DNA from: Desulfocarbo indianensis
Lineage (GTDB): Bacteria > Desulfobacterota > Desulfarculia > Desulfarculales > Desulfarculaceae
Assembly: GCA_001184205.1 (NCBI GenBank)
Contig: LBMP01000005.1
Location: 1-64,000, forward strand
Length of the DNA: 64,000 nucleotides
Reading direction: 5' to 3'
Under the pieces are notes generated by a model, which was given only the letters and a program-made list of their open reading frames with translations, was not told the origin of the DNA and did no database searches. Each line of letters starts with the position of its first letter. Position 1 is the first letter of the stretch. This document shows positions 56,341-61,218 of the stretch, in pieces. The translations under genes were made by a program, and so were the position numbers.

Positions 56341-57699
56341 ATGCCCATCGGATTGGAAGAGGTCTTTGAAACCGCGGAGATGATTCTCTTTGAGAATTAC
56401 GACATCCGCGCGGTCACCCTGGGGGTCAACCTCAAGGACTTGGTGCACCCCGACCCCCACCGCCTGGCCCAGGCCGCGAACCAGCGCCTGAGCAAGCTGG
56501 GCTCCCGCCTGGCCGCCGAGGCCCAGGCCGTGTCGGAGTCCCTGGGCGTGCCCATCGTGAACAAACGGCTTTCCATCACTCCGGCCGCCTGGCTCATCGA
56601 GCCCTGCCCGGATAAGGAAGCCCCCCTGATCCTGGCCCAGGCCCTGGACGAGGCCGCCCAGAAGGCGGGCATAGACTTCGTGGGCGGTTTCGGCGCCTGG
56701 GTGCAAAAGGGCGCCACCAAGGCCGACCGCCGCCTCATGGAATCGCTGCCCCAGGCCCTGGGCTCCACCCAAAGGCTCTGCGGGTTCCTGAACCTGGCCA
56801 CCACCCGCGCCGGCATGAACCTGGACGCCATCGCCCGCCTGGGCGAGCTGCTCCTGGAGATGTCCAGCGCCGCGCCCCGGGGCATCGCCTGCGCCAAATT
56901 CGTGGCATTCGCCAACGCCCCGGAGGACAACCCCTTCATGGCGGGCGCTTTCCACGGCCCCGGCGAGGCCGACGCCGCCCTCAACGTGGGCATCAGCGGG
57001 CCCGGCGTGGTGCGCGGCGTGGTGGAGCGCCATCCCGACTGCGACCTGACCATGCTCTCGGAGATCATCCGCCGCACGGTGTTCAAGATCACCCGGGCCG
57101 GCGAGCTGGTGGGGCGCGAGCTGGCCTCCCGCCTGGGGGTGGAGTTCGGGGTGGTGGACATCAGCCTGGCGCCCACCACCGCCATCGGCGATTCGGTGGG
57201 CCGCATCCTGCAGGCCATGGGCCTGGAGCAGGTGGGCGCGCCCGGCACCACCGCCGCCCTGGCCCTGCTCATCGACGCGGTGAAAAAAGGCGGCTCCATG
57301 GCCAGCGGCCGGGTGGGAGGCCTTTCCGGCACCTTCATTCCGGTCAGCGAGGACCTGGGCATGATCGAGGCGGTGGAATGCGGGGCCTTGGGTTTGGAAA
57401 AGCTGGAGGCCATGACCGCGGTGTGCTCGGTGGGCCTGGACATGTTCGCGGTGCCCGGCGACACCCCTTCCCACGCCCTGGCCGCCATCATCGCCGACGA
57501 ATTGGCCATCGGCATGGTCAACCACAAAACCACCGGGGTGCGGGTGGTGCCGGTGCCGGGGCTCACGGCCGGCGACAGCGTGGATTTCGGCGGGCTTCTG
57601 GGGCGCGCGCCGGTCATGAAGGTGAATCCCTTCAGCGGGGAGCGCTTCATCCGCCGGGGCGGCTGTCTGCCCGCCCCCCTTAGCGCTTTGCGCAATTAA
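56341..57699 (+). CDS. PFL family protein (DUF711/UPF0210)
   Basis: Cytosolic protein of 452 residues of a widely conserved family distantly related to pyruvate formate-lyase by fold. It shows RAVTLGVNLKDL near the start, GGFGAWVQKG, and the late HKTTGVRVVPVPG. No glycyl radical motif is seen, so the lyase chemistry of true PFL is not expected. Function unknown; the paired ACT protein suggests control by a small molecule. Confidence 0.9.
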   Translation: MPIGLEEVFETAEMILFENYDIRAVTLGVNLKDLVHPDPHRLAQAANQRLSKLGSRLAAEAQAVSESLGVPIVNKRLSITPAAWLIEPCPDKEAPLILAQALDEAAQKAGIDFVGGFGAWVQKGATKADRRLMESLPQALGSTQRLCGFLNLATTRAGMNLDAIARLGELLLEMSSAAPRGIACAKFVAFANAPEDNPFMAGAFHGPGEADAALNVGISGPGVVRGVVERHPDCDLTMLSEIIRRTVFKITRAGELVGRELASRLGVEFGVVDISLAPTTAIGDSVGRILQAMGLEQVGAPGTTAALALLIDAVKKGGSMASGRVGGLSGTFIPVSEDLGMIEAVECGALGLEKLEAMTAVCSVGLDMFAVPGDTPSHALAAIIADELAIGMVNHKTTGVRVVPVPGLTAGDSVDFGGLLGRAPVMKVNPFSGERFIRRGGCLPAPLSALRN

Positions 57700-57777: not shown

Positions 57778-58725
57778 ATGGCCAAGTCCGAGCACATAGT
57801 TTCCGCCGAGCGCCGCCGGGAAATGGCGCGGGTCAGGAAACCGCAGGTTTGGTGCTATTTTTCCATCCCCGTCTACTGGCATACCGCCGGCGGCGACTTC
57901 GTGCTGGTCAAGGCGCCCGGCCAATACCTGCGCGACCGTTTGGGCAGCGATCTGCCGCTCCCGGAAGAGCTATACGTTTTCAAGAAAGACAAGGCGGCGG
58001 CGGTGCCCGAGGTGCAGGCCGCGCTCAACGCCGAACTCGAGCGCATCATGGCCGGCCAGGACGTGGAAGGCGTCAAGCAGCTCATAACCGACATCGTGGA
58101 GGAAACCTTTTCCGAACCCAGGGCCGGCACCATGCTGCCCCTGAAGGACACGGTGAAAACCGTGGTGGCGGGCTACGCCGGCCGCAAGGAGGCCTTCCGC
58201 CGCATCGCCCTCATGGGGTCCAAGGATTATTCCACGGTCCTGCACTCGGTCAACGTGTCCGCCCTGGTGCTGGCCTACTGCGCCCATCGCGGCCTGCCCA
58301 AGGATAGAAGCGTGGATTTGGGCCTGGCCGGCATGCTGCACGACGTGGGCAAGCTTTTCGTGGATCAGGCCATCCTGGCCGCCCAGCGCAAGCTGACGCC
58401 CGAGGAATTCGCCAAGGTGCGCGAACACCCCCTCCTGGGGCACCATTTCCTACGCGGCGCTGATTTCCCGTCCGAGGTCATGGAGGCCTGCCTGCAGCAT
58501 CACGAGCGCATTGACGGCCAAGGCTATCCCAAGGGCCTCAGCAAGCCCTCCTTCGCCGGCCAGTTGGTGGGCATCGTGGATTGCTACGAGGCGCTCACCT
58601 CCGACGAAAGGCATTACCGCGAAGCCCTGGACCCCTTGCCCACCCTGGCGCTCCTGAAGCAGGAAATGCTGAGCGGTAAATTCGATCAGTCGCTTTTCAA
58701 GGAATTCGCCTACAGCTTGGTCTAG
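57778..58725 (+). CDS. HD-GYP domain protein (likely cyclic-di-GMP phosphodiesterase)
   Basis: Signal protein of 315 residues. The N-terminal 140 residues form an unassigned domain, perhaps DUF3391-like. The HD-GYP domain from about 150 has HSVNVSAL, LHDVGKL, HPLLGHHFL, HHERIDGQGYP and VDCYEALTS, so all metal-binding positions and the GYP loop are intact. It should degrade cyclic di-GMP. No receiver or membrane segment is present. It faces the ATPase-PqqD gene convergently. Confidence 0.9.
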   Translation: MAKSEHIVSAERRREMARVRKPQVWCYFSIPVYWHTAGGDFVLVKAPGQYLRDRLGSDLPLPEELYVFKKDKAAAVPEVQAALNAELERIMAGQDVEGVKQLITDIVEETFSEPRAGTMLPLKDTVKTVVAGYAGRKEAFRRIALMGSKDYSTVLHSVNVSALVLAYCAHRGLPKDRSVDLGLAGMLHDVGKLFVDQAILAAQRKLTPEEFAKVREHPLLGHHFLRGADFPSEVMEACLQHHERIDGQGYPKGLSKPSFAGQLVGIVDCYEALTSDERHYREALDPLPTLALLKQEMLSGKFDQSLFKEFAYSLV

Positions 58726-58752: not shown

Positions 58753-59601
58753 TCACTCCTTCTTGCTTTCCATCAGCTTTTGGTAGGATTGCATGGCCCG
58801 GGCCGCGCCGGGCTCTATCTGGGTGCGCACCTCCACCTCCGCGCTGGGCCGGGGCAGTTCCCGCGTCTCCACCAGCCCCCTGCCGATCAGCACCTGAAAA
58901 AGCTCCTCCACCGCGTGGCGGCCCTTTTCGGGCATGACCTTCAGGGCGGCGGCCATGATGGCGGCGAAACTGGTCCGGCCGTCCACCAGGGAGAGGACCT
59001 GGTGGGCCAGGGCGCGCACGATATAGGACTTGCCCGTGGCGGCGTCGTCCAGGCGGTGTTGCAGGCGGCCTTCGTGCTGGATGGGCGTCAGGCTCAGGCC
59101 CGGCCGCAGGGAAGGCACCAAGCGCGCCCAAGGCCGCGCCCCGGCGTGGGTCATCTGGTTGGTCAGCAAAAGGCACAAGCGCCGTTCGCTGCCCTTTTGG
59201 GTCAGGGTGATGCGCTGGGCATAGGCCTTGACCAGGTGCAGGCCCAGGCCGTCGTCTTCCCGGCCCTCCAGAATGGCGTCCAGGGAATAGTCCGGCTCCC
59301 TGGTGGGGTCATAGGCCAGATGACTGGTGCTGAAGCACAGCTCCATGCCGTCCGGCTCCACGGATAGCTCCAGGCGGCAAGGCTCGCGCAGGGCCGCGCG
59401 GTCGCACTGGGCGGCGATATGCAGGAATATCTCCTCGGCGATGAGCCGGGCCCGGCCCTGGGCGTGCTCGCCCAGGCCGGCCAGGGCCGCGGTTTGCTCC
59501 GCCGCCGCCAGCACCAGGGGCAAATAAACCCTGGTTCCGGGAACGCTGAGCCTCACCCGGTCGCCGGTCAGGCTGTTGGAGCACTTTTCATCCTGAGGCA
59601 T
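58753..59601 (-). CDS. Degenerate GHKL ATPase-like domain fused to a PqqD-like domain
   Basis: Protein of 282 residues. Residues about 15-150 resemble the RsbW/anti-sigma ATPase fold, with the G2-like block DGLGLHLVKAY (117-127). The usual N-box asparagine position is occupied by His61 and no D-x-G box is seen, so ATP binding may be lost or changed. Residues about 165-245 match PqqD (PSLRPGLSLT, then VDGRTSFAAIMAAAL and VLIGRGLVE), the fold used as a peptide-recognition element in RiPP synthesis. The ATG at 59601 has AAGGA 8 bases upstream. Function unknown. Confidence 0.75.
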   Translation of the reverse strand: MPQDEKCSNSLTGDRVRLSVPGTRVYLPLVLAAAEQTAALAGLGEHAQGRARLIAEEIFLHIAAQCDRAALREPCRLELSVEPDGMELCFSTSHLAYDPTREPDYSLDAILEGREDDGLGLHLVKAYAQRITLTQKGSERRLCLLLTNQMTHAGARPWARLVPSLRPGLSLTPIQHEGRLQHRLDDAATGKSYIVRALAHQVLSLVDGRTSFAAIMAAALKVMPEKGRHAVEELFQVLIGRGLVETRELPRPSAEVEVRTQIEPGAARAMQSYQKLMESKKE

Positions 59602-60582: not shown

Positions 60583-61218
60583 TTGGCCGCCAAGCATTAC
60601 ATACTCATGGGCGACGTGGTCCGCAGCCGGCAACAACCCGGCGCCGCCTTCATGCGCCAGTTCAAGAATCTGGTGGCGGGCTGCAATGAAACGCTTTCCC
60701 AGGACCTGCTCTCGCCCCTGACCATCACCCTGGGAGACGAGTTCCAGGGAATCGCGCGATCCCTGCCAGCCGCGCTGGACGCCATTCTGTGGCTGGAGGA
60801 AAAAATATTGGAATCGCGGTTAAAATTCAAGCTTAGATACGTGGTCCATCACGGCAGAATCGATACCCCCATCAACCGGGCGATAGCCTATGAAATGGTG
60901 GGCCCCGGCTTGACCGCGGCGCGCGAGTTGTTGACCGGTAAAAAACGCGGCCGCCCCAGGGCCCGAGTGGACCTGCCCGCCCGCGACAAGCTGGCCAGAC
61001 AACTGAACCGCCTGCTCGCGGTTCTCCTCTCGCTAAAGGACGATTGGAAGGTCAAGGATTACGGCCTGGTCTTGGACATGCTCGGCCAGGAAAACGATTC
61101 CGAGGTGGCGCGGCTGCACGCCAAGGACCGCAGCCAAATATGGCGCAGGCGCAAGACCCTCCACGTGGAAGACTATCGCACCCTGAAAGCGGCGATCCTG
61201 GAAATGGCGGCCGGCTGA
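60583..61218 (+). CDS. SatD family protein
   Basis: Protein of 211 residues. The N-terminal domain has GDVVRSR (10-16) and LGDEFQ (50-55), the two signature blocks of the SatD family, and the C-terminal part has a helix-turn-helix-like segment (SQIWRRRKTLHVEDYRTL). SatD was named in Streptococcus acid tolerance; its biochemical role is unknown. The start is TTG at 60583 with AAAGGACG upstream. It overlaps the following membrane-protein gene (TGATG-type), so the two probably act together. Confidence 0.82.
   Translation: MAAKHYILMGDVVRSRQQPGAAFMRQFKNLVAGCNETLSQDLLSPLTITLGDEFQGIARSLPAALDAILWLEEKILESRLKFKLRYVVHHGRIDTPINRAIAYEMVGPGLTAARELLTGKKRGRPRARVDLPARDKLARQLNRLLAVLLSLKDDWKVKDYGLVLDMLGQENDSEVARLHAKDRSQIWRRRKTLHVEDYRTLKAAILEMAAG

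Follow-up and report, generated by a model that had tools for sequence, protein, structure and literature searches.

An RsbW-type pseudo-ATPase joined to a PqqD-like RRE domain in Desulfocarbo indianensis, and its M50-fused relatives in NHLP-type RiPP clusters

Introduction

RsbW and SpoIIAB are anti-sigma serine kinases with a GHKL domain of the HATPase_c_2 family (PF13581). PqqD-like domains, or RREs, normally grip short peptides, and they are found as discrete proteins such as PqqD and the lasso B1 proteins (e.g., TbiB1) as well as in fusion with M50 peptidases. MpaP, which acts in daptide synthesis, has been described as an intramembrane peptidase that depends on an RRE (PMC10036551), and M50 proteases also work in the epipeptide and pearlin RiPP pathways (PMC10885120). 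RRE-peptidases and RsbW proteins are each already known, while their combination is new; the open-access papers searched held nothing relevant on an RRE paired with an anti-sigma-type pseudo-ATPase, most subscription journals being outside the scope of that search. Here we describe such a protein from a 64,000-nucleotide stretch of Desulfocarbo indianensis DNA (the window; contig LBMP01000005.1), together with the relatives that place it in a RiPP context.

The gene and its relatives

The open reading frame at 58753-59601 (-) encodes a protein of 282 amino acids and is a genuine gene, as seen from its translation, six full-length relatives and dN/dS. A purine-rich AAAGGA lies about 10 nt 5' of the ATG, and translation might instead begin at an upstream TTG (59637), although the ATG agrees better with where the relatives start. 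These relatives, which together with the window protein are referred to as the short form, are 49-59% identical to it and come from six further genomes in its taxonomic family, with a fragment in a seventh; publicly they are recorded as Desulfarculus-type MAGs and Dethiosulfatarculus sandiegensis. Across a sample of 395 genomes from the phylum, the pair of domains is seen in this family only. When contigs were searched with the window protein as a single query there was no match, and the alignment as query returned the seven known loci. Viral contigs, plasmids, PHROGs and PADLOC yielded no relative. In two close pairs of short forms dN/dS is about 0.14 and about 0.11, which shows that the gene is maintained by purifying selection, and about 90 positions are invariant across three genera.

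An RsbW fold with a degenerate ATP site

The first-pass annotation had read the protein as a degenerate anti-sigma-type ATPase fused to a PqqD-like domain, and both halves of this pair are borne out by profile and structure comparisons. An AlphaFold2 model built from a ten-sequence alignment (mean pLDDT 75.7, pTM 0.62) has an RsbW/SpoIIAB fold followed by an RRE of the leader-bound type. The RsbW/SpoIIAB-type GHKL domain spans residues 14-147 (59161..59562, -), with the element order E-H-H-E-E-H-E-E. Pfam HATPase_c_2 scores 28.7 bits over residues 26-138 against a cut-off of 27.4, and it matches in all seven short-form members (best E 9.7e-9). In the PDB, Foldseek matches it to RsbW (6m37; E 3.5e-7, TM 0.83), and also to UsfX and SpoIIAB. 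The ATP-lid region, residues 106-115, is not confident in the model.

The ATP-site columns of the seven short forms were compared with those of 25 RsbW-type relatives from the same phylum, and the motif claims made earlier, that a G2-like box is kept and the N-box asparagine and D-x-G box are lost, therefore prove right for the window protein. Its N-box, EEIFLH (residues 56-61; 59419..59436, -), retains the glutamate and has Asn61 replaced by histidine; the asparagine is present in 25/25 RsbW-type relatives, whereas the seven short forms have H/H/H/N/R/Q/H, so that the residue lost here is still found in one relative. The G1 (D-x-G) box is lost in TSHLAYDP (residues 92-99; 59305..59328, -): its aspartate is present in 19 of the 25 relatives, with glutamate in four more, and its glycine in 22, while every short form has threonine and histidine at these two columns. 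The replacement residues, Thr92 and His94, are thus themselves conserved. The G2 box, DGLGLHLVK (residues 117-125; 59227..59253, -), is retained, including its glycines in 7/7 short forms. Invariant positions of the short form include E57, G118, G120, H122 and K125. The window protein accordingly lacks the complete ATP site of N-box Asn, D-x-G and G2, and both the loss of this site and the two-domain architecture are well supported. Four cysteines of the same domain, C66, C75, C89 and C143, are also invariant in 7/7 short forms and missing from the M50-fused relatives described below; they may form a metal or redox site.

The RRE domain

The second domain, residues 157-248 (58858..59133, -), is predicted to consist of strands followed by three helices. 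In Pfam, PqqD (PF05402) reaches only 12.8 of the required 23.4 bits over residues 186-244 and is sub-threshold throughout the short forms, and the sole NCBIfam match, a weak one, is with the ApyI RRE. Its assignment as an RRE is nevertheless supported in four independent ways. Foldseek matches it in structure to the leader-bound lasso RRE TbiB1 (5v1u/5v1v; TM 0.72, probability 1.00), and hhalign aligns the C-terminal half with the RRE at the N-terminus of M50 peptidases (E 6e-9, probability 95.9%). Profile searches succeed in both directions, as a profile made from M50-fused relatives alone picks up the window protein across its two domains, from position 11 to 244 (E 4.5e-7), and one made from short forms picks up an M50-fused protein over 11-243 (E 7.8e-8). 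Finally, one M50-fused relative from the window's own genus scores above the Pfam PqqD cut-off (25.5 vs 23.4 bits). Against three true PqqD sequences hhalign gives a probability of 32% for the short form and 0.3% for the long form. The domain matches the RRE-peptidase type, the kind found in the daptide protease MpaP.

M50-fused relatives in RiPP clusters

The M50-fused relatives constitute a second, collinear family, the long form, of about 560 amino acids, in which an RsbW-like pseudo-ATPase and an RRE are followed by an M50 intramembrane metalloprotease with an intact HExxH. The RRE and M50 part scores 181 bits with NCBIfam daptide_HExxH (NF041824), below the cut-off of 300. Long forms have also lost the G2 glycines, and in the alignment they lack the C-terminal two-helix tail that AlphaFold2 secondary structure places at residues 251-280 of the window protein (58762..58851, -). 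Elsewhere in the phylum RRE-M50 proteins are mostly about 700-745 amino acids long, and those that were checked showed no RsbW match; it is with the RRE of these proteins that the C-terminal domain of the short form aligns at E 6e-9. The full long form, modelled independently with AlphaFold2, gives a low-confidence model (pLDDT 47.6) with a fair RRE part, whose two top families are the same as those of the short form, RsbW and RRE. Trees of the two domains have long branches, with L089 and L123 unstable, and do not decide between one fusion and separate fusions as the source of the short and long forms.

In its resolved members the long form resides in RiPP clusters, which upholds, at the level of the family, the earlier link to RiPP peptide recognition that the TbiB1 and M50-RRE matches also support. 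In genome G007, whose cluster is the one scanned in full, the long form comes after five genes for NHLP-leader precursors and those for a YcaO/cyclodehydratase, a SagB dehydrogenase and a radical SAM protein, and the gene order in G011 is the same. In the D. baarsii-like genome G003 an ABC transporter, two radical SAM maturases and an NHLP precursor come before it; Deba_2490 was listed as a D. baarsii NHLP precursor in 2014 (PMC4289311). NHLP precursors adjoin the long form in G003, G007, G010 and G011, the gene of G010 being NHLP-like and below the model cut-off, and G009 has such precursors in contigs too short to establish adjacency. The loci L040:6862-15198 (-) and L039:1947-8778 (+) are NHLP-type clusters with several tandem precursors, YcaO, SagB, radical SAM and the RsbW-RRE-M50 protein. 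At the D. baarsii-like locus L038:929-8623 (+) the RsbW-RRE-M50 protein is accompanied by an ABC transporter, an NHLP precursor and two radical SAM maturases, of which one is GrrM/OscB-like; the chemistry is different there and the protease the same. In Dethiosulfatarculus (L094:2482-7312, -) NHLP precursors lie beside 672- and 698-aa proteins that by eye resemble cobalamin-type radical SAM enzymes. RRE-M50 leader peptidases therewith gain a new front domain, tied to NHLP clusters.

Genomic neighbourhood of the short form

Short-form genes sit amid housekeeping genes. A conserved gene of about 452 codons (56341-57699 in the window) lies downstream and convergent in most relatives, and the upstream neighbour is valS in three cases, DUF134 in three (one of them in the order valS-DUF134-gene) and an M15 peptidase in the window. 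DUF134 resembles sigma-70 region 4 and scores as Sigma70_r4. It is located directly upstream on the same strand in 3/6 relatives, from two genera (L034:3312-4471, L036:4733-5935 and L035:2663-3726; the order valS-DUF134-gene is that of L137), and its stop codon overlaps the start of the neighbouring ORF in one case. The window has no such arrangement, as DUF134 of this genome is on a different contig from the short-form gene; two carrier genomes, G007 (99% complete) and G011, gave no DUF134 match, and DUF134 is also found in unrelated settings without a short-form gene. The suggested search for conserved neighbours has thus turned up a sigma-like gene in half of the relatives, but the window contains no sigma or anti-anti-sigma gene in the operon of the gene, and there is no room beside it for a gene of precursor size.

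In the window genome no NHLP precursor was detected with a model that does match in relatives, and no M50 protein related to the long form was found. Likewise, no precursor gene or maturase was found near the short form, in contrast to the long-form relatives, which do have them. The earlier proposal of a peptide-binding pseudo-kinase sensor is plausible, but no candidate peptide gene accompanies the gene. The genome has only one YcaO, with TPR-like repeats and located between valS and eno, for which a RiPP role is unlikely. The HD-GYP type protein at 57778-58725 (+; HD_5, 90.8 bits) adjoins the gene in this genome only; a link with this cyclic-di-GMP enzyme, which the first-pass annotation mentioned as a neighbour, is accordingly dismissed as chance adjacency. 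Near the gene, 60583-61218 (+) encodes a SatD-family protein (PF16264, 51.9 bits).

Possible functions

The closest relatives that share the domain pair are membrane proteases in peptide-antibiotic clusters, and the window protein is therefore probably an adaptor taken from that machinery. The reading that we favour, with modest confidence, is a soluble adaptor or sensor made of an RsbW-fold pseudo-ATPase and an RRE, sister to the RsbW-RRE-M50 leader peptidases that the same bacterial family has in its NHLP-type RiPP clusters. Most likely it binds peptides as an adaptor, independently of ATP, and derives from the leader-peptidase machinery of RiPP pathways. The RRE groove would bind a short peptide segment, while the RsbW domain would no longer phosphorylate and would serve instead for dimerisation and partner docking, its remodelled pocket (T92-x-H94 with the retained G2) possibly holding a partner or a ligand that is not hydrolysed. 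In the long form the domain pair may present leader peptides to the membrane protease; the short form would be a protease-free peptide-binding adaptor or sensor, acting outside any RiPP cluster. Several observations count against this explanation: the window genome has no detected NHLP precursor or related M50 and its single YcaO is beside valS and eno, RREs are similar in fold to winged-helix DNA-binding domains, PqqD is under the Pfam cut-off in the short forms, the trees could not show one fusion behind short and long forms, and with G2 and Glu57 retained the protein might still bind nucleotides. A dN/dS of about 0.1 argues for a function. An RRE that selection retains in a genome with no NHLP cluster detected bears on the question of whether RREs work beyond RiPP synthesis.

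An unlikely but tangible alternative is an anti-sigma-type transcriptional switch, in which the RsbW-like domain would sequester the sigma-region-4-like DUF134 protein and the C-terminal domain would sense the signal that releases it. The RsbW fold and the DUF134 genes directly upstream in three relatives from two genera agree with such a switch, but DUF134 is unmatched in G007 and G011, is on another contig in the window genome and occurs elsewhere without the short form. Moreover, the kinase residues are lost, which makes a normal RsbW-RsbV cycle unlikely. A broader and distinctly doubtful proposal combines this idea with the RiPP ancestry: a leader-recognition module moved out of an antibiotic-type pathway and was rebuilt as an intracellular peptide-responsive switch, whose RRE would sense a short peptide or an unstructured protein tail and whose ATP-free RsbW domain would relay this to DUF134, with the four invariant cysteines perhaps providing a redox or metal input. 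Similarly doubtful is a non-catalytic sensor of nucleotides or small ligands, where Glu57, the G2 glycines and Lys125 would bind ATP or ADP, leave it unhydrolysed and thereby control whether the RRE binds a peptide; the invariance of E57, G118, G120, H122 and K125 fits this, but the protein has lost the Asp that contacts adenine and the Asn that binds Mg, and as the long form lacks the G2 glycines too, the pocket seems dispensable to the architecture.

It is improbable that the protein is a DNA-binding regulator whose C-terminal half is a normal winged helix rather than a peptide-binding RRE. RREs and winged helices have a common fold, regulators are the main false positives of RRE-Finder (PMC7470986), which counts for this possibility, and the housekeeping neighbourhood would suit a regulator; however, the profile match (E 6e-9) is with the M50-peptidase RRE and the structure match with leader-bound lasso RREs, with no HTH family among them. 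Finally, the missing M50 partner and RiPP cluster of the window genome could suggest a decaying remnant of an RsbW-RRE-M50 protein after loss of the protease, but this is very improbable given the low dN/dS (~0.11-0.14), the ~90 positions invariant in three genera and the invariants specific to the short form, such as the four cysteines.

Comparison with known systems

The adaptor proposed here resembles the anti-sigma kinases RsbW and SpoIIAB in fold, element order, G2 box and N-box Glu, but it differs from them by the absence of the N-box Asn (Asn61 to His) and of both D-x-G residues (Thr92, His94), by its additional RRE, and by having no adjoining RsbV or sigma-factor gene. The HATPase_c_2-GNAT fusions of the same phylum are likewise fusion proteins with an N-terminal RsbW domain; unlike the window protein, they have an intact N-box Asn, a mostly intact D-x-G and an acetyltransferase partner. 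HATPase_c_2 with an intact N-box Asn is found at L049-L054 and L060, most of them in proteins of about 500 amino acids, and the three that were scanned all have GNAT.

With discrete RREs such as PqqD and the lasso B1 proteins, including TbiB1, the window protein shares the predicted fold of strands and then three helices (TM 0.72), but its RRE is joined to a pseudo-ATPase of the GHKL type, no RiPP cluster was found with it, and its PqqD score is sub-threshold in Pfam. The RRE-fused M50 peptidases (daptide MpaP/DapP, NF041824) have the same RRE type; the window protein differs in lacking the M50 domain and in having an RsbW domain in front, whereas the long forms add an intact HExxH M50 and reach 181 bits against the NF041824 cut-off of 300.
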